The notes under the pieces were generated by a model that ran no database searches, was not told where the DNA came from, and worked only from the letters and a program-made list of their open reading frames with translations. A DNA stretch of 64,000 bases from Alphaproteobacteria bacterium (GTDB lineage: Bacteria > Pseudomonadota > Alphaproteobacteria > Rickettsiales > SXRF01): the NCBI GenBank assembly GCA_025362975.1, contig JANYES010000005.1:1-64000 (forward strand), in the 5' to 3' direction. This document shows positions 12,058 to 46,935 of this stretch, one piece after another. Numbering within the stretch: the stretch's first letter is position 1; each line of letters opens with the position of its first letter. The translations under genes were made by a program, and so were the position numbers.

Positions 12058-13284
12058 ATGTCTAAAATTAATAAGAGTAATACTCGGAAAGACAAGCTGA
12101 CTGTACGTTTTGTTGAATCACTACCCTTCGTCGCAAAGGGGCAAAAGGTATATACGGACTGCGAATTGATAGGATTTGGTATCATTGTCGGCAAAAATTC
12201 CAAGACTTATTTCGCCCAGCGTTTCGTTAATGGGAAAACTGTCAGGGTCACAATAGGCAGGCACGGCATATTTACCAGCGAGCAAGCCCGCACTGATGCT
12301 AGGGAATTACTCGTCCGTATGGCACGTGGCGAAAACCCTAATCAAACGAAACGTGAAATAATATTGGAAGAACGAGAAATCGCTTCAAATGAGATAACAC
12401 TGGCACAAGCGTGCGATGCGTATCAAGAAGGCAAGAAACACCTAAGCAAAGTCAGTCTTTATAGGTTACGCAGATGCAGGGAGCAGTGGTTTGATGATTG
12501 GATGCGGCTTCCTATTAATCAAATCACTAAGGAAATGGTGCTTAAACGCCATGCAAAAATCGGCAAGAAGCATGGCGGCACAACTGCTAATAACGCTTTG
12601 AAATTGTTACGAGCAATCTATAACTTCGCTCTTATTATCAATAGCACCCTCCCCGCCAATCCTGTCAGAACCTTATCTCAAGCCAAAAGTTGGTTTAAAC
12701 AGGAAGTAAGGCAAAGCGTTATAAGGCCTACACAGCTGAAATCTTGGTATGATGCGGTAATGCTGGTGGAAAGCAGTATTATACGGGATTACCTTTGCCT
12801 ACTGTTATTTACAGGCATGAGAAAAACCGAAGGATTATCGCTACGTTGGGAAAATGTTGATTTTAAGGAAAAGGTCATAACGGTGCCGGATACCAAAAAT
12901 GGCAAGCCCCTTATCATTCCTATGAGCGATTATGTCCATGATTTGCTCAGTTCTAGAAAAAAGCGCACAAGCAATAGCAAATGGGTTTTCCCCGGCACTG
13001 GCAAAACAGGTCATCTTGTTGAACCCAAGAAGGCAATGGCAAACATAGCAAAGAAATCTGGCGTTCCATTTATGACACATGACCTACGCCGCACCTTTAT
13101 CACTATAGCTGAGAGTCTTGATATATCATCATATGCGCTCAAACGACTCGTCAATCACAGCCAAGGCCGCGATGTGACAACTGGCTATATAGTCATGAAC
13201 GTTGACCGCCTGAGAGAGCCAATGCAAAAAGTAGCCACTTTTATTCAGCAGAAAATTAATGCCGATAATAAAGAATCAAGGTAA
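12058..13284 (+). CDS. Tyrosine-type integrase of element 1
   Basis: The protein has 408 residues: an N-terminal arm-binding domain of the DUF4102 type (SKTYFAQRFVNGKTVRVTIGRHG), a core-binding SAM-like domain and a C-terminal catalytic domain. Catalytic residues are visible: Arg in LLFTGMRKTEGLSLRW, HDLRR, the second His in LVNHSQG and the nucleophile Tyr in TTGYI. It should catalyse integration and excision at the tRNA anticodon-loop site that begins 170 bp upstream. No strong Shine-Dalgarno is seen before ATG 12058. The gene appears intact. Confidence 0.92.
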   Translation: MSKINKSNTRKDKLTVRFVESLPFVAKGQKVYTDCELIGFGIIVGKNSKTYFAQRFVNGKTVRVTIGRHGIFTSEQARTDARELLVRMARGENPNQTKREIILEEREIASNEITLAQACDAYQEGKKHLSKVSLYRLRRCREQWFDDWMRLPINQITKEMVLKRHAKIGKKHGGTTANNALKLLRAIYNFALIINSTLPANPVRTLSQAKSWFKQEVRQSVIRPTQLKSWYDAVMLVESSIIRDYLCLLLFTGMRKTEGLSLRWENVDFKEKVITVPDTKNGKPLIIPMSDYVHDLLSSRKKRTSNSKWVFPGTGKTGHLVEPKKAMANIAKKSGVPFMTHDLRRTFITIAESLDISSYALKRLVNHSQGRDVTTGYIVMNVDRLREPMQKVATFIQQKINADNKESR

Positions 13285-27066: not shown

Positions 27067-30000
27067 ATGGCCTTTAGTTTAAATCAACTTACCGATCTTG
27101 CGTCGCAGGCCATCGACACGTTGTACGACAAGCATCCTGACCATTTCCATTACTCTTCCAAAGACATGGCCAAATCCGTCGTCTCGCGTGAGCTTGAAAA
27201 CCTGCAACGCGTCGGTACGCTTCAGGGCCTGAACCCCGATGCCGTGTCCCAAGCCGCGCAAATGCACATGGTGGGCCTTAACAACCTCGAACAGGACATC
27301 CTGACCAGCCCGACCAATACGCAGGAAACCCGCAGGCTTATCCAGACGCCCCGCCAGAATGCGCTCACCGACGAGCTGGTCAAAAACCTGCAAAACAAAG
27401 CCCCCATCGAGGCCCACGGCCTTGAGGCCCTCGTCAAACCTTCCATCCTGCCCACCCGCCTGCGCACGATGGCGGAGATCGACAAGATCGAGATCGGCAG
27501 CACGCGTGCCCTCGGTTTCCTGTGGAAAAACCGCGTCGAACTCGGCGTGCGCCACCTCGAGCCGCAACAGATCGAGGCCCTAAGGACTCATTTGAACGAA
27601 ACGCTCGCGCCAAGCCTTCGCGGTGATCAAATCGGTATCGAAGGCATCACCAGAATGCGAAACGGCGAACCCGTCACCTTCGTCCAGAAGCTCGTCGTCC
27701 CCATCGGCGCCAACAACGTCACGCCCGAGGCCGTGCAGCAAGCCCTCACTGATTTCAAACCTAAAATCCCGGACCGCACCCCGTTCAAATGGGGTGAATC
27801 AACTCCCGCCGCCGCTGCCGAAACCGCCGCTACGATTGAAACCAAAATCGCCGCTGAAGTAGCCGAAATCGTAAAACTCACTCCCGCGCTCGGCTCTGCC
27901 GAAGCTATCGCGAGCGCCAACGCCATTCCGCTGGAAAACATTCCCGAGCATCTGCAAGGCCTCGCCCAAGGCGCACGCGGCATCGCGGAAATCCCCGCCA
28001 GCCAGTTTACCGGCCTCATCGACAGCGCCGTATCTTCCGGCGCCCGTAAAGCTACTTACGGCGCAGCCGCCCTCGGTTCCGTCATCGCCGCGCAGCATGT
28101 CGTAGCCGAAACTAAGCCCGCCGTTTCCGCCCCCATCAATACTATCGCGCTGGAAGAAGTACCCGAACGTTTCCAAGGCATGGCCGAAGCCGCTCGCGGC
28201 ACGATCACCGAACCCTCGTTAAAAATCCGCCTTGCCGAGTCGCCGGCGCCAAAACCCGTCACAGTGCCGGAGTTTACCAGCGTTGCCCCCGTCCAAACGC
28301 TTGCAGCCGAAGTGGCTCCCGCCATCGGCTCTGCCGAAGCCATCGCCAAAGCCGCCGCCATCCCAATGGAAAACATTCCCGAACACATGCAAGGCATGGT
28401 CGGCGGTGTTCGCGGCACGGTCATAGAACCCGCCCTCACCCCACGCCTTGCCGACGCACCATCAACCACCACCGCGCGCCTGCGCACGAGCAACCCTGAA
28501 CTCGCCACCGCTGCCTTGCCGCCAACACCTACAGTCACCGAGGCCATCACCCGCGCCCCCATCAACACCGTCGCGCTGGAAGAAGTACCCGAACGTTTCC
28601 AAGGCATGGCCGAAGCCGCTCGCGGCACGATCACCGAACCCTCGGTAAAAATCCGCCTCGCCGACACGCCGACGCCCAAGCCCATCGTAACATCGCAAGC
28701 AACTGCAACCATTGCCCCGCTCCGAACCGCCGCTACTGAAGTAGCCCCCGTCCTCGGCTCCGCCGAAGCCGTCGCCAAAGCAGCTACGATCCCGCTGGAA
28801 GAAATCCCCGAGCACATGCGCGGTATGGTCTCCGGCGTGCGCGGCACCATCGAAACCCCCGCCAGCCAGTTTTTCGGCCTCGTCGATGCGCCGTCCACCC
28901 ACATTTCGCGCACAGTGCGCACCAGCAACCCTGAACTCGCCACCGCCGCCTTGCCTCCCACCACCGTTGCACCGGCTGTGGCCAGGGTCGATACTGCCGC
29001 AGCCGAAGCCCTCGCCCGGGCCAACGCCATTGCACTCGAAGACGTCCCCGAACGTTTTCAGGGCATGGTTGAAGGCGCACGCGGCCTCTCCACCGAACCC
29101 TCAGTCAAAATCCGCCTCGCCGAGACACCGACGCTAAAACCTGTCGTCGTGCCGGAAGCAGCCGCCGCAATTGCCCCAGTCCAAACCGTTATTGCCGAAG
29201 TCGCGCCCGTTACTGTTGAAGCTGCAGCCATCGCCAAAGCCGCCGCCATTCCGCTCGAAGAGATTCCCGAACGTTTCCAAGGCATGGTCTCCGGCGTGCG
29301 CGGCACGGCCGTCGAACCCGCCCTCACCCCGCGCCTTGCCGACGCCCCGTCCAGCGCGCCGTCGCGCCTTCGCACCAGTAATCCTGAACTCGCAACCGCT
29401 ATGCATATTCCCGAAGTACCCCCGGTAGCGCCTGAAATCAAAGCAGTGGCGCAACCCGTTACCAGAATCGCCGCCGCCGAACTCGGCACGCAGGCCGGTA
29501 TCGAAAGAGCCGCCACCATCGATCTCGAAACCATTCCCGAACATTTGCGCGACATGGTGAGCGCCTCGCGCGGCGTGCCCGCGGCCTCCACGCCCGCCAG
29601 CCCGTTCCAGGGCCTTGTCGACGCGCCCTCCGCATCGCGGCCGAAACAGCTTCGCACTAGCAATCCCGGTCTTGCCACCGCCACCTCAGCGGACCTTGCA
29701 TCGCGTCCCGCCCCCATCGTTGCCGCAGCGCCCAAATCGCGTGTGCCGTATACCGGCGGAGCTGTCACGGGCGTGGAAACAGGTGCGCTGGCGGGTGCAA
29801 AACGCAAACTCGACGGCGCCTTATCGCTCGAAGGCATCGCCCTCCAGAACGAACGGCACTGGACCGCGCCGATGGGCGCCGAACAGGAAGTCCTCAAAGC
29901 GCAGGTGCTGGCCGATTACGAAGCGGCGCAGGCTCTTAAAGGCCACACGCACGCCGCCTTCACCGAACTCGAAACCTCCGCCATCGACCATGTCAGCGGC

Positions 30001-31569
30001 AAAAGCTATTACCCACAGGAAGCGTGGGACGCCTTCCAGTCCAAAATGGGCGAGTTGACCCCGCAGATGCAGGAGTTGGAAACCAAATTCGCCAGCGGCT
30101 ATTCGACGCAGGGCGCCGAGGCGCTTGCCGCGGGCAAGCCCACCATCACCTCGATCTTCCAGGGCGGCAGGCCCGATTTCGGCAACTCCGCACTCGGTAT
30201 TAAAGGCACGCTGGCCACCGATATCGGCGAAGGCATCGGCCGCCTCGGCATCGTCACCGCAGGTGCTGCCGCCGTTACCGTACCGGTGATCGCCACGCTG
30301 AAGGATATCGCACCCCAAGGCATCAAAGTCGCCCGTGCGGGCGGTTTGCTCAGCTCGGCGCGTCGCCATGCGGCGGTCGATGTGTCAAGCCTCAGCGAAG
30401 CACAGGCTGCCACGCTTAAGCATCACCTCGAAGAAGAATTCAAAGCCGCCCCCGGCCGCGTAACCATGAAGGACGGCAAGCTGATCGTCGCCGATATCAC
30501 TCCTGCGCGCGTCGAAAAAACGCTGGCATCTCTCAAGCATCAGGTTCTCGACCCCACCGCTGGCATGCACACACCGCTGGGCACGAAACCCGCCGCCGCC
30601 GCCATCGCACCGGAAGTGTTGACCGAAGTCGGCCCGTTTGCCGAAATCGCCGAACAAGGCCGCAACGCCCGCCTGACCTCAAAGGGTATGAAAATTACCC
30701 CGGCCGCTACGGCGCTTGCCGCCACCATCGAAACCCCCGCCACGCCCGAATCACTGGCTCAGGCCGAGCATCATGGCCAATGGGCCGACGCCGTCGATGG
30801 CAAACTCCCCGTCGCCAAGCCTGTCGCCCCCAAACCCGTGATCGAACCTTCAACGCTCAAACCCGCCAGTGACAAATCGTGGAAACGCGGTGCCGAATCG
30901 CCCACCGCCACCGCAGCCTTCGCCCCGCCCGAACCTAAAATCAAACCAAAAGTCAAAGCGGCTCCCGCTGCCAAGCCCGAACCCGGCGCGTTCGACTTCC
31001 TGAAAAACCCCGAAGGTAAAATTATCAGTCAGGAAACCACATTCTTGAAAGAAGCTGCCGCAAGGGCGGAACGTCCCGGCCTGCTGCGCCGTGCGGCTTC
31101 GGGCATTTTACGTGGCGGCAATGCCGCTGTCGGCGGCACGGTGGGTCTTGTGACCGGCAGTGCGAGCCTTCTTAAAAACGGAATTGTCGGCGGTGCCGGC
31201 CTGACACGCGATGTGGCGGTCGGCAGCGTGGATCTGATGAAGCCGATGGCAAAAATCAGCGGCAAAGGCATCGTCAACCTTGCTAAAGGCACGCACGGCA
31301 TGGCGTCTAACCTCATTCTCGCCGGTGCGGCGACCGCCGCGGTCGTTGCCGCCGGTGCAGCCATCCCGACCAGCCAGCGTGTGCGCGTGCGTGAAAACTA
31401 TTTGAACCACGACGACGAAGGCATCGCCTTCGGCCAGACCAGCAGCGTCGATCTCGGCGGTATCGCCATGCCGTCGCTCGGTCAGGGGCAGAACGCCGGT
31501 TCATGGGTCTCGCGCCTGCCGTCGATGGAAGAGCAGCAAGCCTCCATGCAGGATTTCGTTAAGCGCTAG
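27067..31569 (+). CDS. 1500-residue Ala/Pro-rich repeat protein, function unknown
   Basis: This very long frame has host-like codon use. The N-terminal 240 residues look like a mixed globular region. Residues about 280-855 hold eight degenerate copies of a unit of the form IPLEEIPEHMQGMVSGVRGT, alternating with a second version (VPERFQGMAEAARG). RTSNPELATA linkers recur four times. A further non-repeat region follows. Near the C-terminus there are Gly/Ala hydrophobic stretches, including NLILAGAATAAVVAAGAAIP (about 1415-1434), possibly a membrane helix. There is no signal peptide. It could be a surface, structural or effector-like protein, and I do not recognise the family. Confidence 0.85.
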   Translation: MAFSLNQLTDLASQAIDTLYDKHPDHFHYSSKDMAKSVVSRELENLQRVGTLQGLNPDAVSQAAQMHMVGLNNLEQDILTSPTNTQETRRLIQTPRQNALTDELVKNLQNKAPIEAHGLEALVKPSILPTRLRTMAEIDKIEIGSTRALGFLWKNRVELGVRHLEPQQIEALRTHLNETLAPSLRGDQIGIEGITRMRNGEPVTFVQKLVVPIGANNVTPEAVQQALTDFKPKIPDRTPFKWGESTPAAAAETAATIETKIAAEVAEIVKLTPALGSAEAIASANAIPLENIPEHLQGLAQGARGIAEIPASQFTGLIDSAVSSGARKATYGAAALGSVIAAQHVVAETKPAVSAPINTIALEEVPERFQGMAEAARGTITEPSLKIRLAESPAPKPVTVPEFTSVAPVQTLAAEVAPAIGSAEAIAKAAAIPMENIPEHMQGMVGGVRGTVIEPALTPRLADAPSTTTARLRTSNPELATAALPPTPTVTEAITRAPINTVALEEVPERFQGMAEAARGTITEPSVKIRLADTPTPKPIVTSQATATIAPLRTAATEVAPVLGSAEAVAKAATIPLEEIPEHMRGMVSGVRGTIETPASQFFGLVDAPSTHISRTVRTSNPELATAALPPTTVAPAVARVDTAAAEALARANAIALEDVPERFQGMVEGARGLSTEPSVKIRLAETPTLKPVVVPEAAAAIAPVQTVIAEVAPVTVEAAAIAKAAAIPLEEIPERFQGMVSGVRGTAVEPALTPRLADAPSSAPSRLRTSNPELATAMHIPEVPPVAPEIKAVAQPVTRIAAAELGTQAGIERAATIDLETIPEHLRDMVSASRGVPAASTPASPFQGLVDAPSASRPKQLRTSNPGLATATSADLASRPAPIVAAAPKSRVPYTGGAVTGVETGALAGAKRKLDGALSLEGIALQNERHWTAPMGAEQEVLKAQVLADYEAAQALKGHTHAAFTELETSAIDHVSGKSYYPQEAWDAFQSKMGELTPQMQELETKFASGYSTQGAEALAAGKPTITSIFQGGRPDFGNSALGIKGTLATDIGEGIGRLGIVTAGAAAVTVPVIATLKDIAPQGIKVARAGGLLSSARRHAAVDVSSLSEAQAATLKHHLEEEFKAAPGRVTMKDGKLIVADITPARVEKTLASLKHQVLDPTAGMHTPLGTKPAAAAIAPEVLTEVGPFAEIAEQGRNARLTSKGMKITPAATALAATIETPATPESLAQAEHHGQWADAVDGKLPVAKPVAPKPVIEPSTLKPASDKSWKRGAESPTATAAFAPPEPKIKPKVKAAPAAKPEPGAFDFLKNPEGKIISQETTFLKEAAARAERPGLLRRAASGILRGGNAAVGGTVGLVTGSASLLKNGIVGGAGLTRDVAVGSVDLMKPMAKISGKGIVNLAKGTHGMASNLILAGAATAAVVAAGAAIPTSQRVRVRENYLNHDDEGIAFGQTSSVDLGGIAMPSLGQGQNAGSWVSRLPSMEEQQASMQDFVKR

Positions 31570-31618: not shown

Positions 31619-31652
31619 AAGGCCGGTGAGTTATCCAGCAATTTTTATCTTA

Positions 31653-31831
31653 TTATTTCGGGCATGCGACGAGGTCCATTTCGACCTCGGGCGTCTGGGC
31701 GAAGAATCCGAAGCCCGTAAGCTTGATGCCCTTGGCGGTGTTCATGACGAACATTTCAACCGCCGGATTGGCGATTTTGACCGATTCGTCGAGTTCGACG
31801 ATCCGGGGAGTATTGATATCCCACGTGGCAA
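31653..31831 (-). pseudogene. C-terminal part of a small host gene split by element 2
   Basis: The minus-strand frame reads TWDINTPRIVELDESVKIAN and ends MDLVACPK, with host-like codon use that disappears at base 31,831. The ORF-track start (MNIKIA) comes from element sequence. Joining base 31,831 to 39,838 through the shared GGCAA restores a continuous 98-residue frame with the N-terminal piece at 39,834-39,956 (...FFTIGNVA/TWDINTP...). The protein family is not recognised. Confidence 0.65.
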
Positions 31832-31890
31832 TTTTTATATTCATATTATATTGATGATAATCATTATGTTATATTATTTTTGTATTGGTC

Positions 31891-31911
31891 AGCTACATAT
31901 CTAGCTACACA
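31891..31911 (+). repeat. Left arm-type repeat of element 2
   Basis: AGCTACATATCTAGCTACACA matches the right-end sequence at 39,688-39,708 in 18 of 21 positions and in the same orientation. It contains two GCTACA words ten bases apart. It is probably an integrase arm-binding site. Confidence 0.6.
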
Positions 31912-32350
31912 AGAGCCATGCGCTTGAAAGCGGAATATGCCTATCTAAGAATTTAGACGGAATCCCGGTAATCGCAATCATAAATCGGCACTTATTTTTC
32001 TGCTGCTCTCTCATCTTGTGCTTGAATCCTTGCTTGACCCTGCCGGAATAACGGCCATAGGCACACCATTTTCCGTAAGGTTTACCCTCTTACTGTGTCA
32101 GTAGCGGGACTATAATTTTCAAATCACGATTACAGATTCTTTGCCATACCGTAGCGCCGAATACGGGAACTCTACGTGATGCCATTGCCTATACATGAAA
32201 ACCAAAAAATGATATTTTTAATATGGTTGGCAATATAGAAGAGGGAAAAGATATGTAGAAAATCACGTGCCTACCGATAAGTTGCTTGCAGCATAAAGAT
32301 GTTCGAGGTAGTGATGGAATATTAAAAATACAACTTTTCAGGGAGTTACT
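31912..32350. other. Gene-free left end of element 2
   Basis: About 440 bp of moderately AT-rich sequence before the nuclease gene, with no credible ORF. It probably holds the promoter for the plus-strand nuclease, whose start is preceded by CAGGGAGTTACT. No RNA gene or clear repeat is seen. Confidence 0.4.
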
Positions 32351-33763
32351 ATGGCTCTGTTCGATCTTCCGCGCCCCGATTTCTTAGCATCCGGTGAAAA
32401 AGCCCGTCTTATTCCATCCGTGGCTGACACCAGCAAAGAGAATCGCATTACCTCCATTTTGCTTGCTACCATGATGTCCGTAGAAGAGTTCGGCAAGGGT
32501 ATGCTCAATACTCTGGGTGTACGTGCGGGTAAGACATCAAAAATTCAATGTTTTACAGAAATTGTTTTCAAAGGTGATGGGCAAAGCAAGATACGTCCCG
32601 ATGGATTAATTATTGTCAAAACCGGCAACAAAGAATGGCGAGCGCTTGTTGAAAGCAAGATTGGGAAAGCTGAATTAGATAAGGCCCAAATCGAATCATA
32701 TCTTGATTTATGCAAGTTATACGATATTGACGCAATCATTACCCTTTCCAATCTTTCAGTAGCGGATTCTAGCCATCATCCGCTGCAATTTAATAAGCTA
32801 AAAACCCGTAATACCGCCCTTTATCATTGGTCATGGATGAATCTGGTTACCAAGGCGATTATGTGGACAAACCATTATGAAATGGCTGATGCCAACCAAG
32901 CCTATATCCTTTCGGAATTTGTACGTTATTTACAGCACCCAAGTTCCGGTGTTCTTCCCTTTGACCGAATGAATGCGGAATGGAAAGATATATGCACGGT
33001 CATTCAGAATGGTATGCCTGTAAATAAAGGCAATGCTGGCGTTATTGAGAGTGTTCGTAGCTGGCATCAGTTTATCTGTAACTTGTCATTGGAAATGAGT
33101 ATCGCCGTTGGGCATAGCGTTACCGTTCCTATGTCACGGGAGCATATAAATGACCCCCAGAAACGATTGCTTGATGATTGTCTGGCACTAGCAACCAATA
33201 ATAAATTGGAAGTAGAATTTGAAATACCCAACGCTGCTTCCCGCATTAAATTCTCCGCTGATTTCAAGTGCCGTACAGTTAGCTGTTCAATGAGATTAAA
33301 GGCACCGGAAGACCGTAAACGGGCTTCAGCGCGTATCCATTGGATATTTAATCAGCTTAAAAATATTGCTGATGACAGCTTGTTGGTGAAAGCGCATTGG
33401 CCGTCCCGCACACCTGATACTTTTGCCCCGTTAGGCATACTCAAGACGAATGAGGATGCGTTATTAACGGATAAAACCGCTCTGCCGCCGTTGGCTTTCG
33501 ATATAGTTTTGACGCATGACCTAATGGCACGTTTCAAAGGCGCACAAACCTTTGTGCAGGATACACAGGGCTTGCTTCTCGATTTCTATGATAAGGTAGG
33601 TCAGCATCTGCGTGAATGGGTAGCTGCACCGCCAAAGGTTGCCATATCGGAGCCGGTGAAAGTATTAGACGGTACAGTGGATACGCAACCCGCCAGTGAA
33701 GCGGTTGCACCAGAATTATTGCCGCAGGATGAACCGCTACCGCTTGTAGCAAACGAGGCTTAA
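32351..33763 (+). CDS. PD-(D/E)XK nuclease-like protein, candidate defence cargo
   Basis: The protein has 470 residues. The N-terminal third has a restriction-endonuclease-type core: an early helix with a conserved Glu (SVEEFGKGML), then RPDGLIIV, and about 15 residues later ALVESKIG. This fits D...ExK of the PD-(D/E)XK fold, near residues 84-103. The remainder is a large alpha/beta region without a recognised domain, and the last 60 residues are Pro/Ala-rich. There is no membrane segment. It is the only plus-strand gene of element 2, at the end opposite the integrase, where satellites and islands usually carry anti-phage cargo. No methyltransferase is nearby. Confidence 0.65.
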   Translation: MALFDLPRPDFLASGEKARLIPSVADTSKENRITSILLATMMSVEEFGKGMLNTLGVRAGKTSKIQCFTEIVFKGDGQSKIRPDGLIIVKTGNKEWRALVESKIGKAELDKAQIESYLDLCKLYDIDAIITLSNLSVADSSHHPLQFNKLKTRNTALYHWSWMNLVTKAIMWTNHYEMADANQAYILSEFVRYLQHPSSGVLPFDRMNAEWKDICTVIQNGMPVNKGNAGVIESVRSWHQFICNLSLEMSIAVGHSVTVPMSREHINDPQKRLLDDCLALATNNKLEVEFEIPNAASRIKFSADFKCRTVSCSMRLKAPEDRKRASARIHWIFNQLKNIADDSLLVKAHWPSRTPDTFAPLGILKTNEDALLTDKTALPPLAFDIVLTHDLMARFKGAQTFVQDTQGLLLDFYDKVGQHLREWVAAPPKVAISEPVKVLDGTVDTQPASEAVAPELLPQDEPLPLVANEA

Positions 33764-33802
33764 TCACCGTTATCGATGCCGTCTCTTGGCTTTTGGGTCG
33801 GG

Positions 33803-34459
33803 TTAGCGATTCGTATACCATTCCCGCCCCCGTTTGCTTACTATACAATCCCTAATCTTGGCAAGGACGGTGTTATTAGGCTGCATAGTGGCGGTATCAA
33901 GTTCAGGGAAATATTGGGAATTTTCGTTGATAACATCACCTGTGCAATAGGCATTTTCCATTAAAACATTATCGGCAAAGGCGACGCATTTATTATGAAT
34001 CTCAATCATACCCTGCAAGTTATCGGATTCGTATTCCACCAGCGGCATAAGGTCGCAGCCCATGACCTCGCCGATGATGCGTAAGCCAGCCTCTAATTCG
34101 TAAAAATTGCTTACATAGCCTATGATAAGTTCGCGCATTTGCAATAAATCTTCCAGGTTTTCGGTTCGGAAATCCAGCAAGGAATTATTTATCAGTGACA
34201 GCCGCCATAACGCATGAAGCGCGGAAATACGAGCCTCATAATGTATCGACTCCATAAGGTGCAGTAGGGGAATCCATGCGTTATATTCACGCAATTCATG
34301 TGGAGAGAGGCGGTCAATAGCGGCTGTTAGTTCCTGCATCGTAAAGGTTTCTGGTTTTTGTGTGACGGCATCTATCTGCCACTGTAATGCCAGCGCGACC
34401 AATTCCTTGCCGGTCAGTCCCTCCAATAATCTTTTACCGGCAATCGCAGTATTACGCAT
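33803..34459 (-). CDS. Hypothetical element-2 protein
   Basis: The protein has 218 residues and is mostly helical (LALQWQIDAVTQKPETFTMQELTAAIDRL), with no signal peptide or membrane segment. Its start overlaps the end of the DUF5681 gene by 8 bp, so it is the last gene of the coupled minus-strand series. No family recognised. Confidence 0.55.
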   Translation of the reverse strand: MRNTAIAGKRLLEGLTGKELVALALQWQIDAVTQKPETFTMQELTAAIDRLSPHELREYNAWIPLLHLMESIHYEARISALHALWRLSLINNSLLDFRTENLEDLLQMRELIIGYVSNFYELEAGLRIIGEVMGCDLMPLVEYESDNLQGMIEIHNKCVAFADNVLMENAYCTGDVINENSQYFPELDTATMQPNNTVLAKIRDCIVSKRGREWYTNR

Positions 34460-34916
34460 GACTTGCTCTCCGCGCTTCCAGCACCGCCGTCAATGCTTGC
34501 AGCCTTTTTTCAAGCATAGCGGTTTCGATGGTTCGGCGCTGTCCCTCTACCAGCCCCGCCAATGCCTCGCCCTCGACCGGCGTGAGTTCGCCCAGCCCTA
34601 CGGCTTCCAAAATGGCAGACATGGCGCGGACAGTATCGGCGGCGGTGACAATGGGCGGCAAATTGATCGTTACGGGCATATCGCGGCGCGAGGGAAGTAA
34701 TCGTTCTAGGCACAGGCGCAATGCAGCCATATCACCGCCTAACGCCAGTTCTATAGCTTTGCGGGTCAGTGCTTCCGCTTCACCATCTAACAAGGCTTGC
34801 ATGGCAAGCGTGGTTTTATTGCGAGCACCAGCGGGACGACCAGCGGGGTTGCCAGATTCACCCCGCTTAAACTTACCACTCTGTATTTTGCCTGTATTTT
34901 CAGGAGTAGCCATCAT
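34452..34916 (-). CDS. DUF5681-domain protein
   Basis: The protein has 154 residues. The N-terminus SGKFKRGESGNPAGRPAGARNK, followed by TTLAMQALLDGEAEALTRKAIELALGGD, is the DUF5681 signature, common in alphaproteobacterial prophages and islands and often near packaging genes. The role is not established; a DNA-binding or small-terminase-like function is possible. It overlaps genes on both sides by 4-8 bp. A related protein is encoded in element 3 at 50,304. Confidence 0.8.
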   Translation of the reverse strand: MMATPENTGKIQSGKFKRGESGNPAGRPAGARNKTTLAMQALLDGEAEALTRKAIELALGGDMAALRLCLERLLPSRRDMPVTINLPPIVTAADTVRAMSAILEAVGLGELTPVEGEALAGLVEGQRRTIETAMLEKRLQALTAVLEARRASHA

Positions 34917-35122
34917 TTTTTCCTATGATAATTTTTTAGATAAACGACCTTTTCATTCTCGTTCGTTATCGTGCCAAAATTGCCAGAATTGCCAAAATTA
35001 AGTTTTTCCGGTTGAGGTCGGATACTTTTGGTGTTTTTGGCATTTTTGACGTGAGTAGGGAGAGTGACAACAAGGGCGTCCCCTCCGGCTTCAAGAAAGG
35101 CGGTAAGCCACTGGCTACTCAT
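34913..35122 (-). CDS. Small hypothetical protein coupled to DUF3987
   Basis: The protein has 69 residues from ATG 35122 (MSSQWLTAFLEAGGDALVV), which overlaps the DUF3987 stop as ATGA; its own stop overlaps the DUF5681 ATG. The ORF-track start at 35,209 would read antisense-style through the upstream gene. The C-terminal half is low complexity (NFGNSGNFGTITNENEK). Translational coupling on both sides supports that it is expressed. Confidence 0.55.
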   Translation of the reverse strand: MSSQWLTAFLEAGGDALVVTLPTHVKNAKNTKSIRPQPEKLNFGNSGNFGTITNENEKVVYLKNYHRKK

Positions 35123-36630
35123 GGCAACGCCTCCCACAGCTTCGGGTTGACGGTGTAATCCTCGCGAGGGCGTCCTGCCCCGGCTGGAAAAGTAGGTGGG
35201 AAAAGCCACGCCGCATCAACGAGCACCTCCGCTGCCAGCTTCACCTTTTCTGCTTTCCTTAATCCGGGTAATCTTGCCTTACGGCGAACGGCACGCAAAT
35301 TAATCACGCTTGGCTTAGTTTTCACTACCCACTGTGCCAACGTAGCGGCAACGCGGTCATCTTCCGGTACGGAGGCATCTCCGAAAACGCACTCCGCCAT
35401 TGGCTTGAAATAATTTTCCACAAGATGCGCGGCAGCAGCGATTGCTTTTTTGCTGATGGCAGTCGGCTCTGGCGCATCAGGCACGATTGCCCACCATAGA
35501 TATTCCAGCACCAGCGCCAGCCGCAACGCGTGGCCGGGGGCTTTGCCGTAGGATGACGCCAATAAGCCGGTGACGTTTTGCTCGGCGGCATAATGTTCGA
35601 CTCGCCACGATTGGAATAATTCGCTCGCATCCTTCGATAGTGGTACTACACGAGGACGAGGGACACTATCACCAGCATCATCTTCAAGTGCCAGCGCCGC
35701 AAGGCGTTGCAATGCCGCCAGCACAGGTGCGGGGTCAGCGCAGCGTTGTGGTCGGAAGGGTGGAATAGGGTCAGGCCATAGCCACAGGAAGCGAGCGGTG
35801 AGGCCGTCGTCGGCACCATGCAACAATTCTACCAGCTTATCCGGTTGTATGCCGCCCATGATGCCTACCAGCAGATAGGGAATGTGTATCGGGAGCGGGT
35901 GTTTTACACGGTCGATGGTATAGGAGCGTCCGCCATAGGCTTCCGTCCAAAAAGCTCTGTCTGCACCGCTGCCGGTGTAACGGTCAAAGCCGCCCAGCCA
36001 GCCGGATAGTTCGTCGCGGTGAAACAACAATCCCTTGTTATGCGCCGCCAGTAGCAATGCCAGTTTTTCGGTGCTGGTATCGTTTCCGACAATGCGGGGA
36101 CGTATTACTTCCGGCGGTGCTTCCGCTTCCGCAGGCATAACGGGTGGCGTTGCACCATCCTTTACCGCTTTTCTAACCTGTTTTTCCCAGTTTTCACGAG
36201 CACAAGTGGCTGCTTCGTTCGCGGTTTTCCATTCTCGCTGTTTTTCCTCGAATCCCGTTGCCATATCCTTTTCAATGGCGCGTAGTAAATGTAGTACCGG
36301 GTCAGCGCCGGGGCTTTTCCCACTTGAAGGATTACCGACGTTCGCAACCCACAATCCCGCCGGTTCTACCCATGACCCCCATGCCGCCACGCGGCGGGCG
36401 TTGCCTATTGTTGCAGCAGCACCGGCAAGTAACGCCCCGGCAACATAATCTACCGGCGCACCGGCTCCCTCGGCAGCATTGGATAGCCAATCGTTCAACG
36501 CGGTACCGAATAATTCGAGAGGTAATTTCGGGGGTGCGCGGCGGCCTTGCCGTAGGATGGTCAGGTCAGGCAATGGTAATGTCACTTCAACCGCATTATC
36601 AGTCATGGTTTTTACAGCCTCGGCAGTCAT
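35119..36630 (-). CDS. DUF3987 protein (primase-helicase-like ATPase)
   Basis: The protein has 503 residues. A Walker A-like loop, NVGNPSSGKSPGADP, occurs near residue 100 and GLLFHRDELSGWLGGFDRY near residue 210, a Walker B-type segment; LLVGIMGGIQPDKL follows. This is the DUF3987 pattern found in satellite and phage replication genes. The enzyme probably acts as the helicase for element replication, working with the Toprim primase encoded just upstream. Its ATG overlaps that gene's TGA, and the next gene overlaps its stop. Confidence 0.82.
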   Translation of the reverse strand: MTAEAVKTMTDNAVEVTLPLPDLTILRQGRRAPPKLPLELFGTALNDWLSNAAEGAGAPVDYVAGALLAGAAATIGNARRVAAWGSWVEPAGLWVANVGNPSSGKSPGADPVLHLLRAIEKDMATGFEEKQREWKTANEAATCARENWEKQVRKAVKDGATPPVMPAEAEAPPEVIRPRIVGNDTSTEKLALLLAAHNKGLLFHRDELSGWLGGFDRYTGSGADRAFWTEAYGGRSYTIDRVKHPLPIHIPYLLVGIMGGIQPDKLVELLHGADDGLTARFLWLWPDPIPPFRPQRCADPAPVLAALQRLAALALEDDAGDSVPRPRVVPLSKDASELFQSWRVEHYAAEQNVTGLLASSYGKAPGHALRLALVLEYLWWAIVPDAPEPTAISKKAIAAAAHLVENYFKPMAECVFGDASVPEDDRVAATLAQWVVKTKPSVINLRAVRRKARLPGLRKAEKVKLAAEVLVDAAWLFPPTFPAGAGRPREDYTVNPKLWEALP

Positions 36631-37481
36631 GCGATACCCCCCATGAATATATCATTAAAATCATAACCAGCTTTCGGCGGTAGTGCGATGCGCACGCGCC
36701 GTCCTTCGCCAAGCCAGCGCAAAGAAGCCAGTTCGGCGGCGCGTTGGCCGACACCATTGGCGTCATTGTCAGCGGCAATTATCACCTCTTGCGCCAGAGG
36801 CAAGGGCGGCAATATTAGTCGCTCCATGCCGCCAGCAGATAATGCTGCCCATGTTGGGATGTCGGTAGCTTGCATGATGGACATGCCGGTTTCGAGGCCC
36901 TCAACGATGGCTAGCTTTTTACCGGCTTTGGATAGGTGCGTTGCATGTCCACCTACGACGCCTAGCGTCATCTTTGCTGGTTTCACCGGAGCCTTGCTTT
37001 TTCCGTCAATCGAAAGGTAAGTACGATGTAGGGCTTGTACTTTTCCTGCAATATCAGTAACGACAGCCAGCATCACCGGCCAGTAAGTTTCCGTGCTCTT
37101 ATGAGGGTGTCGCGGTAAAAAACGCAATGACGCAGGAATTTCCGCTGTTATGCCGCGTGCGCGAAGATAGTGTTCAATGATGGTTCCGCCAGCGGGAAGG
37201 CTTGATTGCCAGAGCCGCAGGATATATTTCTGTAAGCTGGTGTCAGTAGATTTATGCGTGACAGGTCGGACATATTCATGGTTGTACACGCCGCCGTTTA
37301 TCGCGCTCAAAAGCTCGCCCTGCGAATCTGGCGAACACCCTGCATGGCAGTAGTACAACTGTCGCCCGTCCTTTTCGATGACGCTTAGGGCGTTTTTGTA
37401 TCCACAGCGAGGGCAATCTCTGATTAGGGTTTGGCGGGAACGGCGGAACTGGGTTGCGGCAGTATTTTGTACCATCATCAT
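36627..37481 (-). CDS. Toprim-domain primase
   Basis: The protein has 284 residues. An N-terminal zinc-binding region reads DCPRCGYKNALSVIEKDG..YYCHAGC. The C-terminal Toprim domain has LAIVEGLETGMSIM (Glu) and VIIAADNDANGVGQRAA (DxD), the metal-binding residues of DnaG-type primases. It should lay down RNA primers for element replication. It overlaps AlpA upstream and DUF3987 downstream by 4 bp each, forming one operon. Confidence 0.85.
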   Translation of the reverse strand: MMMVQNTAATQFRRSRQTLIRDCPRCGYKNALSVIEKDGRQLYYCHAGCSPDSQGELLSAINGGVYNHEYVRPVTHKSTDTSLQKYILRLWQSSLPAGGTIIEHYLRARGITAEIPASLRFLPRHPHKSTETYWPVMLAVVTDIAGKVQALHRTYLSIDGKSKAPVKPAKMTLGVVGGHATHLSKAGKKLAIVEGLETGMSIMQATDIPTWAALSAGGMERLILPPLPLAQEVIIAADNDANGVGQRAAELASLRWLGEGRRVRIALPPKAGYDFNDIFMGGIA

Positions 37482-37687
37482 GCCCCGTGCACTTCAAGCC
37501 ATTCTCGAATAGATTGCACTGGCCACGCGGTCACTCTCTCGGACAATTTCACAGGTTTAGGAAATTCACCGGATTTGACTTTGCGCCAAATAGTCGAGTT
37601 GGAAAATGGCACAATTTTTACTAATTGCGATTGGCGAATAAAGCCCGTTGCGGGCAGTTCGCCGTTAGTAGGAAGAGATACTTTCAT
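37478..37687 (-). CDS. AlpA-family regulator/excisionase
   Basis: The protein has 69 residues with the compact AlpA winged helix: FIRQSQLVKIVPFSNSTIWRKVKSGEFPKPVKLSERVTAWPVQSIREWL. In P4-like elements AlpA proteins activate excision or the primase operon. It is the first gene of the coupled minus-strand series, so a promoter is expected in the 120 bp before it. Confidence 0.88.
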   Translation of the reverse strand: MKVSLPTNGELPATGFIRQSQLVKIVPFSNSTIWRKVKSGEFPKPVKLSERVTAWPVQSIREWLEVHGA

Positions 37688-37809
37688 GCTGGGTCACTCC
37701 ATGTAATTAACCATTATAGCTTTACATGAACTGAAAAATGCAGCGGTGTGAACGCGGGGAAAATTACCCGTGTTCACGAAGCAAGGGTGATAGCGGCTTT
37801 GCGGCGGTT

Positions 37810-38409
37810 CTATGCTTTGTAGGATTTCTTCTTGTTAGGCCGGGACGGCATTTTTCCCAAACAAATATCTAAAAAATCGTGTCGTGCTTCTTTTATTTCT
37901 TTTTGCGACGTTTTGTCATACAGGGCATTTTTATCAAAAAAATTAGTCAGTGCTGCTTTAACGCTGTCGTGCACATCTTTTTCGTGTCGATTTTGAGCGC
38001 CGCCGTGGCTTTTTCCAGCTTTTTTTAATTGTTCTATACCAAGCTGGGCATTCATTGCCAGATAGGTAAGGCCGCTCCATAGCTCGCCATTTTGACAACC
38101 TAAAAGCGCGGCTGCTCGCATACTAATTGTATTTTGATGCAACTTATCTGCCAGTTCGGTCGTAAGTTTGTCGATTGCTTCCAATTCAACACGAACACTG
38201 GCAGACGTCGGTTGATTGCGTAACCGCCGGAGCCAGTTAAAATAGAACGTCAACTCACGATTTAATTTCCTGATTATCGTCTTTTGTGCGTCAACCGGTT
38301 GTTCCCAATACCCCAAGTGGTTCACGATTTCTTGTTGTTCCTGTTTATTAAACCTGACCGGAATCCGATAAATATCCGGCTGTGATTTTGGTTTTGTAGC
38401 TGTACCCAT
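37810..38409 (-). CDS. Hypothetical element-2 protein next to the integrase
   Basis: The protein has 199 residues, is basic and mostly helical (LNRELTFYFNWLRRLRNQPTS, EAIDKLTTELADKLHQN), and ends in a Lys-rich tail. No signal peptide, membrane helix or recognised family. It begins 1 bp after the integrase stop, so it is probably cotranslated with the integrase. Confidence 0.55.
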   Translation of the reverse strand: MGTATKPKSQPDIYRIPVRFNKQEQQEIVNHLGYWEQPVDAQKTIIRKLNRELTFYFNWLRRLRNQPTSASVRVELEAIDKLTTELADKLHQNTISMRAAALLGCQNGELWSGLTYLAMNAQLGIEQLKKAGKSHGGAQNRHEKDVHDSVKAALTNFFDKNALYDKTSQKEIKEARHDFLDICLGKMPSRPNKKKSYKA

Positions 38410-38410
38410 A

Positions 38411-39658
38411 TTACCTCACATTCTGCCGTATAGGGATTATTTTCCAGTTTTCCCCGGCTTCGCAGGTCAAAATGAAATCCGTCCATAATTCCAAGGCAGC
38501 GCGGCGTTCAGTCATGTAGTCGTGCTGGTCATAAACTGCAACCAGTCCGCCAAGTGAGTGATTTAGGCAGCGTTCGGCAATGATGATGTTGACACCCAGC
38601 GCCGCAAGATGGCTCCGCGCTGTCGAGCGCAAATCGTGCGGAGTGAAACGGCGGCACTTATCGCCGAGGGCGTCACACAGTTTATTCAGCATAGAATTAA
38701 GCGAATGCTGGTTTAAATGAATATCCGCGCCATATTTCTCTATCCGGCGCGCTTGCCGTGCCGGTAGCACATAGCGCGAACCGTAAGCAAAGGGCTGCAA
38801 CGCCGTGAACCAGCCAATCACCGCTGGCGTCAAAGGCACGGTGAACCCTTTGCCAGTTTTGGAGTTCTGGTCAGGAATAAACCACTCAGCCGTTTTAAAA
38901 TCTATATGCGCCCATTCCGCTTTTATCAGTTCGCCGATACGGACGCACGTTGCCAGCAGGATTTTGACCGACAACGCATTTTGCTCGCCGATAGTGTGTA
39001 CGGCTGGCAATATCTCCCGCAATTCCTCGGCGGTGAGTTTGAGTCGCTGGCGTTTCGGCTCCGCCTTGCCGATAATCGCCGACACGGAAATCACCGCGCA
39101 GGGATTAGCAATAACAACATGCCGCGCCACGGCGTGCTTAAAGATTTCTGAAATGGCGGTAAACACCAGTTCCGCTACGCTTTTTGAACGTCCACCCACG
39201 CTCTCGATTATCGCCACTACGTCGGCAGTGGATACATCGCGGGCCGCCAGTCCGCTCAGTTTAGGCAGGATGATACGCTCAATATGCGAGCGACGTTGAT
39301 ATATGGTGTTAGCGGCGAGGTGCGGGAATTTCTTTTCCATATAATCGGCAGCGAGTTTCCGAAAACTCATAGCGGCGGCGGTTTCCACCTTTGTCCGGCG
39401 TTTTTCACGCGCCACATCAAAGCCGCCCTGAATCTTAGCGCGGGCGTCCGTTGCCGCCTTTCGGGCGTTGGCAAGGGATATATCCTGATACCTGCCTATC
39501 GTGAGTTCACGGGGCCTACCGCCGAAACGATAACGCAGCACCCAGCTTGCCAATCCCTTCGCCGATAACGTGAAGGTCAGCCCGCCCCCGTCGGATTTTG
39601 CGACCGGTTTTCCTATTTTTATCCATGTACGAATCTGTATGTCGGTCAGCTTGTTCAT
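38411..39658 (-). CDS. Tyrosine-type integrase of element 2 (P4-like)
   Basis: The protein has 415 residues with an N-terminal DUF4102 arm-binding domain (LSAKGLASWVLRYRFGGRPRELTIGRY), a core-binding domain and a catalytic domain. Catalytic residues are visible: Arg in LLATCVRIGELIKAEW, HDLRSTARSHLA, His in CLNHSLGG and Tyr in AVYDQHDY. It lies at the right end of the element, 176 bp from the crossover. TGTGTAGCTAGA and TCTAGCTACACA, an inverted pair, sit just before its ATG and may allow self-regulation. Confidence 0.92.
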   Translation of the reverse strand: MNKLTDIQIRTWIKIGKPVAKSDGGGLTFTLSAKGLASWVLRYRFGGRPRELTIGRYQDISLANARKAATDARAKIQGGFDVAREKRRTKVETAAAMSFRKLAADYMEKKFPHLAANTIYQRRSHIERIILPKLSGLAARDVSTADVVAIIESVGGRSKSVAELVFTAISEIFKHAVARHVVIANPCAVISVSAIIGKAEPKRQRLKLTAEELREILPAVHTIGEQNALSVKILLATCVRIGELIKAEWAHIDFKTAEWFIPDQNSKTGKGFTVPLTPAVIGWFTALQPFAYGSRYVLPARQARRIEKYGADIHLNQHSLNSMLNKLCDALGDKCRRFTPHDLRSTARSHLAALGVNIIIAERCLNHSLGGLVAVYDQHDYMTERRAALELWTDFILTCEAGENWKIIPIRQNVR

Positions 39659-39669
39659 ACGCCCCCCAA

Positions 39670-39708
39670 TGTGTAGCTAGAGCCTCTGGCTACACGTCTA
39701 GCTACACA
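39670..39708. repeat. Right arm repeat and inverted repeat before the element-2 integrase
   Basis: TGTGTAGCTAGA (39,670-39,681) and TCTAGCTACACA (39,697-39,708) are exact inverted copies 15 bp apart, placed 12 bp before the integrase start. The right half lies within the 21-bp sequence shared with the left end at 31,891. It probably serves both as integrase arm site and as an operator. Confidence 0.6.
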
Positions 39709-39833
39709 CGTTATACAGGATGCAGGGGCACGTTGTGAAGTGCTATAAAATGATAAAGTAAGGAAATCTGCGTTATTGACGATATTTATGACACGATATA
39801 AAATGCCAGAAAATGCCAATTACAATTACACTC

Positions 39834-39956
39834 GGCAACGTTGCCGATGGTGAAGAATTCCTTCTTCCCGATGAGACGTCCGATCAGCGTGGGGGTTGCC
39901 CACACGAATTTGAGGCCGTGTTTCGTAACCGACCTGGTGATGAAAACAACCATCAT
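39834..39956 (-). pseudogene. N-terminal part of the host gene split by element 2
   Basis: Starting at ATG 39956 after AAAGGGAACT, the minus strand encodes 41 residues (MMVVFITRSVTKHGLKFVW...EFFTIGNVA) and then leaves the host frame at GGCAA 39,834-39,838. The C-terminal 57 residues are at 31,653-31,826. An inverted TCGCAC/GTGCGA pair about 30 bp upstream may belong to its promoter. The family is not recognised, and both pieces are presumably non-functional now. Confidence 0.65.
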
Positions 39957-45463: not shown

Positions 45464-45539
45464 AGGGGTGTAGCTCAGCTGGTAGAGCGGCGGTCTCCAA
45501 AACCGTAGGCCGCAGGTTCGAATCCTGTCGCCCCTGCCA
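45464..45539 (+). tRNA. trnW: tRNA-Trp (CCA anticodon)
   Basis: A full cloverleaf: acceptor AGGGGTG with CGCCCCT, D arm GCTCAGCTGGTAGAGC, anticodon arm CGGTCTCCAAAACCG with anticodon CCA, T arm GCAGG-TTCGAAT-CCTGT, discriminator G and encoded CCA. Its 3' end is the attachment site of element 3; a degenerate copy lies at 55,084. The tRNA itself is intact. Confidence 0.96.
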
Positions 45540-45653
45540 TTTCTAAGTCCGGCAATGTCCGGTACAATCCATAAAGTATAGAGATTAGCACGTTTATAGC
45601 TGTTTATATGGCCAGTAATGTCCATGACGTATTATTGACATCCGGGGGTAATT

Positions 45654-45672
45654 AGGGGTAAATGTGGGGGTA
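45654..45672 (+). repeat. Left arm-type repeat of element 3
   Basis: AGGGGTAAATGTGGGGGTA matches 55,007-55,025 in 17 of 19 positions in the same orientation; a further GGGGGTAA lies 9 bp to its left. It lies between the tRNA and the integrase start, as expected for integrase arm sites. Confidence 0.6.
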
Positions 45673-45702
45673 GCTTTAAAAACCATTAGCGGAGTTACCC
45701 CC

Positions 45703-46935
45703 ATGCCCCTAACCGATGTGACAGTGAGGACTGCAAAGCCTAAGAGCAAGCCGTATAAGCTATCGGATGGTGGCGGCCTATTCTTGTTGGTACAACCCTC
45801 CGGCGGCAAATGGTGGCGCTATAAATACCGCTTTACAGGTAAAGAAAAACTGTTGGCATTGGGTGGTTACCCAGATGTTAGCCTTGCCGATGTGCGGGAA
45901 CGTCATTCGCAGGCACGCAAGGCATTAGCGGCAGGCAATGATCCTGGTGAGGTAAAAAAAGAGGCAAAGCGCCTCGCGGTTATCAAAGCTGATAACAATT
46001 TTGAGGCAATTGCCCGCGAATGGCATGAACAACATCGCCATGAATGGGTGGCTCATTATGCCGGTGACGTTCTTAACCGCCTTGAAACGCACATGTTTAC
46101 CAAGATAGGCAATAGGCCGATAGCTGATATTAACGCGATAGAAATCCTTTCCGTATTACGTATTATCGAAAAATCAGGCGCATTAGATATGGCGCAACGC
46201 ATGATGCAAACATGCGGACAGGTTTTTCGGTACGCCATCACTACCGGACGCGCTGACCGTAATCCAGTCGCAGACTTGCGTGGAGCGCTGAAAACGCCGG
46301 TACGCAAGCATCATGCTCACCTTAAGGCGGATGAGTTGCCAGAATTTCTGCAAAAATTAGCAATCTACGATGGCAATTTGCAAACCAAGTTGGCGTTAAA
46401 ATTATTAATGTTAACATTTGTACGCACCACAGAGTTACGTGGCGCGGAATGGGGAGAGATTAATTTTGATGCCGCTGAGTGGCGTATTCCCGCCTCGCGC
46501 ATGAAGATGAAAGACCCGCACATTGTTCCACTATCAACGCAAGCAATTGCAGCGCTGCGCGATTTGCAAAAAATTTCTGGTAATCGGCAGCATGTATTTC
46601 CCAACGAAAAAAGACCGATTACCTTTATTAGCGAAAATACCATGCTTTATGCCATATATCGCATGGGTTATCATTCCCGCACCACTGGGCATGGCTTTCG
46701 CGCCACCGCCAGCACTTTACTCAATGAGCAAGGGTTTGCTCCAGACGTAATCGAGCGCCAGCTTGCTCATTGTGAACGTAATAAGGTGCGCGCCGCATAT
46801 AATCATGCTCAACATCTACCGGAGCGTGGGAAAATGATGCAATGGTGGGCGGATTATTTGGATGTTCAAATAAGTAGGAAACCTGAGCAAAACGCGATGC
46901 TTCAAGGAAAGAGTTATGGCAAAAAAAGAGATTAG
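45703..46935 (+). CDS. Tyrosine-type integrase of element 3
   Basis: The protein has 410 residues from ATG 45703 (MPLTDVTVRTAKPKSKPYKL), the usual N-terminus of DUF4102 integrases. GCGGAG lies upstream; the GTG in the ORF track at 45,664 lies in the arm repeat. It has a DUF4102 domain, a core-binding domain and a catalytic domain. Catalytic residues are visible: Arg in LTFVRTTELRGAEW, HGFRATASTLL, His in LAHCERNK and Tyr in RAAYNHAQ. It recombines at the tRNA-Trp 3' end 170 bp upstream. Confidence 0.93.
   Translation: MPLTDVTVRTAKPKSKPYKLSDGGGLFLLVQPSGGKWWRYKYRFTGKEKLLALGGYPDVSLADVRERHSQARKALAAGNDPGEVKKEAKRLAVIKADNNFEAIAREWHEQHRHEWVAHYAGDVLNRLETHMFTKIGNRPIADINAIEILSVLRIIEKSGALDMAQRMMQTCGQVFRYAITTGRADRNPVADLRGALKTPVRKHHAHLKADELPEFLQKLAIYDGNLQTKLALKLLMLTFVRTTELRGAEWGEINFDAAEWRIPASRMKMKDPHIVPLSTQAIAALRDLQKISGNRQHVFPNEKRPITFISENTMLYAIYRMGYHSRTTGHGFRATASTLLNEQGFAPDVIERQLAHCERNKVRAAYNHAQHLPERGKMMQWWADYLDVQISRKPEQNAMLQGKSYGKKRD

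Follow-up and report, generated by a model that had tools for sequence, protein, structure and literature searches.

An integrative element is found inside a small protein-coding gene in the stretch of alphaproteobacterial (Rickettsiales) DNA analysed here (64,000 nucleotides, "the window"). This raises the question as to whether the two gene fragments truly belong together and, if so, whether the gene is the regular target of the integrase or a site used in place of another. When the left flank up to 31831 is joined to the right flank from 39839, the minus strand encodes a 98-residue protein (MMVVFITRSVTKHGLKFVWATPTLIGRLIGKKEFFTIGNVATWDINTPRIVELDESVKIANPAVEMFVMNTAKGIKLTGFGFFAQTPEVEMDLVACPK*), with CGAAAGGGAACTATGATG directly 5' of the rejoined ORF and a Shine-Dalgarno-like ribosome site (GAAAGGGAACT) just upstream of the 5' part of the gene. 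This agrees with an initial annotation, according to which deletion of 31,832-39,838 yields one in-frame 98-residue ORF with a ribosome site and a stop. The GGCAA said to be common to both junctions is also present (TTGCC on the gene strand, GGCAA on the plus strand), and this shared 5-bp core makes the cut ambiguous by 5 bp. When codon usage is scored for each fragment individually, the best of the six reading frames is in both cases the very one linked by the join (0.237 and 0.336 per codon), and GC3 is alike in the two (0.77 and 0.73).

The ends of the element provide a second line of evidence. The integrase has an N-terminal arm-binding domain, and matching arm sites of the GTAGCT type lie inside both ends, where the annotation had placed similar repeats. 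In 64 kb there are exactly three copies of the 12-mer TCTAGCTACACA, each of them just inside one of the element's two ends. Relative to the core, the far-side arms are at -82/-70 in the window and in all four relatives for which both ends are visible (see below); on the integrase side, the window has +128/+140/+155 vs. +129/+141/+156 in the relatives, where present. Since these spacings equal those of the relatives to within one base, the crossover can be placed without using the 98-residue ORF, and the result agrees with the first cut, so that the element boundaries proposed initially hold to about one base. The predicted circular attP junction reads AAAATTGCC-GAGTGTAATTG. A pattern search for a second element with the same arm set in the same genome returned none. 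With the genome in 28 contigs, an assembly artefact joining unrelated contigs could in principle mimic an insertion, but a misjoin would not produce att cores and arm spacings that match at the two ends, and the probability of such an artefact is close to nil.

As listed in Table 1, the genes for the integrase (int), the 199-residue protein, AlpA, the primase and the DUF3987, DUF5681 and 218-residue proteins are co-directional, with the gene for the 470-residue cargo protein running opposite. The element has the int, alpA and primase genes of gram-negative PICIs, and most of its genes point the same way; judged by genes alone it resembles a PICI and may be satellite-like. In helper-embedded PICIs (HE-PICIs) and other gram-negative PICIs, int, alpA and primase genes are found together with an inward-facing int (PMC10111431). 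HE-PICIs sit in prophage late genes (motif TGTATTGC), can insert mid-gene without a replacement for that gene, and their arm motif is doubled and lies some 81 bp upstream and 132 bp downstream from the centre of att (PMC10111431). The window element differs in that its arm motif is GTAGCT, its location is not a prophage late gene or any other prophage gene, and the gene for which it brings a replacement is a different one (xth, see below). The flanks (dapB/repeat-protein gene and histidine-kinase gene) are chromosomal and syntenic in relatives, on which grounds the 98-residue gene was rejected as part of a prophage; a tRNA target was likewise rejected, there being none at either element end. 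By eye, the 470-residue protein has a D...VESKI stretch reminiscent of PD-(D/E)xK nucleases. A Fur-box-like palindrome (TGATAATCATTAT) lies at 31848-31870, at the far end of the element and near promoter-like hexamers; inspection of the relative L068 by eye showed no counterpart.

Table 1 Features of the element and of the gene it interrupts (window coordinates).
Feature	Coordinates	Strand	Remarks
Interrupted gene, 3' part	31653..31831	-	TWDINTPRIV...VACPK stop; codon usage best in joined frame
Chimeric ORF, 63 aa	31653..31844	-	MNIKIATWDIN...; created by insertion
att core, far end	31827..31831	-	TTGCC
Replacement gene start	31827..31844	-	ATG AAT ATA AAA ATT GCC (MNIKIA); like xth N-terminus M-x-I-x-I-A/V-T-W
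Integrative element	31832..39838	.	8,007 bp; ends ambiguous by 5-bp core
Arm sites, far end	31891..31908	-	GTAGCT; -82 and -70 from core
Cargo protein, 470 aa	32351..33763	+	No family or defence-model match
218-aa protein	33803..34459	-	No family
DUF5681 protein	34452..34916	-	
DUF3987 helicase-like replication protein	35119..36630	-	
Primase	36627..37481	-	DUF7146 + Toprim_3
AlpA-type regulator/excisionase	37478..37687	-	69 aa
199-aa protein	37810..38409	-	No confident family
Tyrosine integrase	38411..39658	-	415 aa; Arm-DNA-bind_3 + Phage_integrase
Arm sites, integrase end	39673..39705	-	GTAGCT/GTAGCC/AGCTAC; +128, +140, +155 from core
att core, integrase end	39834..39838	-	TTGCC
Interrupted gene, 5' part	39839..39956	-	MMVVFITR...FFTIGNVA; homologous to small-protein family

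The 98-residue protein has no family match in Pfam or PHROGs, and searches of phages, plasmids, viral contigs and genome contigs initially found nothing. A weak match in genome G007 was later traced to a distant small-protein family, comprising two tandem G007 proteins and one on the organism's own contig C3; weak matches in VirB3-like and GcvH-type neighbourhoods were judged on inspection to be due to chance. The best match of the N-terminal part to this family has a score reached by 0 of 2000 shuffles. Adding the C-terminal part raises the score from 54-56 to 69, a value matched by 42 of 5000 shuffles of that part, and the alignment runs on across the junction with W-x-I-N. By itself, the C-terminal part has no significant homologue, its match being indistinguishable from chance. 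The homologue spanning the junction that the initial annotation called for was therefore obtained in part: the N-terminal part is clearly homologous, and none was found that covers the whole junction at full significance. The tandem G007 paralogues (L025:634-1779) are located near a ThyX-like gene.

The behaviour of the C-terminal part alone could also be explained by a coincidental rejoining, whereby this part came from elsewhere (e.g. with DNA brought by the element) and the original gene had another end. Just past the stop of the 98-residue gene, at 31638-31657, lies a near copy of the element's far end (GCAATTTTTAT, 17/20), which would fit such a history. Against this, the codon usage of the C-terminal part peaks in the joined frame, its GC3 matches that of the N-terminal part, the homologous alignment crosses the junction and the arm spacing fixes the crossover at 31827-31831, making a coincidence very unlikely. 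The codon-usage frame, the homology of the N-terminal part, the placement of the 12-mer and the arm-to-core spacing of the relatives together lift the rejoining above chance. The 98-residue gene is truly broken by the insertion in the window copy, and a replacement for it is absent from the element. The near copy at 31638-31657 may be due to chance or be an att-like relic.

In none of 343 genomes of the order was an empty site, also suggested as a check, found. The locus in G001, a genome of the same genus, reads dapB, repeat protein, histidine kinase, with both the 98-residue gene and the element missing, and in G004, G007 and G009 dapB adjoins the kinase gene. From these comparisons, the interrupted gene is accessory; it is poorly conserved and has only distant relatives. 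The repeat protein gene between dapB and the kinase gene (27067-31569, 1,500 aa) is itself fast-changing, with 630 aa at the same place in G001 and no counterpart in G004, G007 or G009.

What, then, is the normal target of this integrase? A scan of genomes for related integrases gave 52 loci. Ahead of int, seven close relatives have DNA that resembles ATG-AAA-CTC-GCC-ACC-TG, which is the start of xth. The integrase relatives are from betaproteobacteria and are 62-70% identical to that of the window. For four of them (L068, L069, L072 and L074) the sequence takes in both ends, and the insertion is at codons 3-6 of xth (exonuclease III, IATWNVN). The far end of the element supplies an ATG plus first codons, the remainder of xth comes after it, and the rebuilt ExoIII is full length in all four (254-260 aa). 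AlpA is present in three of the four and a related primase in L068; past int and alpA, gene content differs among the xth-site relatives (2.6-9.3 kb). The contig of the IMG/VR relative L066 starts at the integrase, with the att site outside the sequence. These loci show that xth, at its 5' end (codons I/V/L-A-T-W-N-V/I-N), is what the integrase group normally targets. The papers searched, a limited literature and hence weak evidence, gave neither xth/exonuclease III as an integrase attachment site nor a published name for these elements. Insertion at the 5' end of a protein gene, with the element supplying a new gene start, is known from SXT/R391 at prfC; those elements differ from the window element in being large and conjugative and in using another integrase and another gene.

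The betaproteobacterial elements and the window element are alike in integrase clade, arm motif and spacing, the ATG-bearing far end and the IATW codons, but whereas the former restore xth, the window copy is located outside xth and breaks an unrelated gene. Its far end reads ATG AAT ATA AAA ATT GCC / ACG TGG GAT ATC AAT, i.e. MNIKIA followed by TW-D-IN of the interrupted gene. MNIKIA-TW is like the xth N-termini of the bacterial family (MTIRIVTW, MTITIATW, MSISIATW), in which M-x-I-x-I-A-TW is common; an xth of the same genome, on contig C26, begins M-x-I-R-I-V-TW. The element therefore still carries a replacement for xth, even though it is outside xth. The landing site itself, GTT-GCC-ACG-TGG-GAT-ATC-AAT (VATWDIN), resembles the xth site: in a matrix built from the relatives' xth sites, four only, it takes third place among the 111,946 positions of the rejoined window (56 kb), and the 12-mer GTTGCCACGTGG is identical in the xth of G001, where the attB-type sequence is GTTGCCACGTGGAATGTG.

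Taken together, it is probable that an xth-type, PICI-like integrative element occupies a secondary, look-alike site inside an unrelated 98-residue gene. The claim that a protein-coding integration target had been identified consequently stands for this copy and falls for the normal target, for which the relatives use the 5' end of xth. Normally, the integrase group would recombine attP with the 5' end of xth, the far end would give xth a new start and first codons, and the host gene would survive. Here, the integrase would have recombined with the VATWDIN look-alike, with exchange at or beside TTGCC. The 98-residue gene would be left as a 5' piece that keeps its start and a 3' piece, the latter forming the 63-residue chimera with the element's xth-type start, which it now follows; precise excision would restore the 98-residue gene. 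The anatomy, the junctions, the arm spacing, the xth sites of the relatives and the in-frame rejoining can be seen in the sequence itself. We infer the order of steps and the ability to excise, and read the event as a secondary one from a replacement start that does not match the gene interrupted.

Three intact and unoccupied xth genes, each with its own start codon, are present elsewhere in the genome, in keeping with a secondary site. Against it, the insertion is the only one of its kind known (n=1), and repeated use of the 98-residue gene may occur; the matrix is also built from four sites. Moreover, the xth on contig C4 outscores the used site in the relatives' matrix (18.96 vs. 10.4) and yet is unused. 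The C4 xth lacks TTGCC, the stretch common to attP and the used site, which is likely why it was passed over, a post hoc and unproven explanation.

A related question is whether the element has adopted the 98-residue gene as its regular attB, with the interruption serving to turn the gene off and on again (regulated gene integrity, a proposal made for helper-embedded PICIs). Both fragments are still readable without frame decay, and the integrase group does change targets, being found at the 3' ends of ZapD, PP2C-type phosphatase and RecO-like genes. On the other hand, attP has only TTGCC and scattered bases in common with the site, the xth-type replacement start has been kept, and the 98-residue gene is orphan-like and missing at the locus in the same genus. 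We therefore regard a regular attB as unlikely and favour the secondary, look-alike site.

The integrase of the window, in a tree built from 26 integrases, belongs to an 11-row fork (support 90/97) that also holds all seven xth-site integrases, two integrases at a phosphatase-like gene and one virus contig of unseen site. A ZapD-like gene, at its 3' end, is the site of the sister group, and a RecO-like gene that of a longer branch. The group thus switches between protein-coding genes and retains arms of the GTAGCT type. In this it is comparable to HE-PICIs, a clade that retargets several protein genes and for which off-target events are reported (PMC10111431). It is conceivable, at somewhat less than even chances, that this is an undescribed integrase clade moving serially between protein genes with fixed arm geometry, and that the present insertion is a first retargeting step, with VATWDIN in place of IATWNVN and the old replacement start kept. 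On the look-alike reading, the insertion shows how an element can leave a site where genes are spared and enter a new one: a few shared bases at the crossover suffice, and the new host gene is broken, since the replacement brought along is that of the old target. The att consensus of the relatives and the arm geometry make the specificity of the integrase group directly testable.

At L075-L082, the DNA directly preceding the related integrases holds the 3' ends of genes that, going by their sequences, are PP2C phosphatase, ZapD and RecO genes. Elsewhere in the window, a tRNA-Trp followed by another tyrosine integrase gene (45464-46935) is probably a separate element at a tRNA, and a third integrase gene is located at 12058-13284; genome-wide there are 22 integrase matches.
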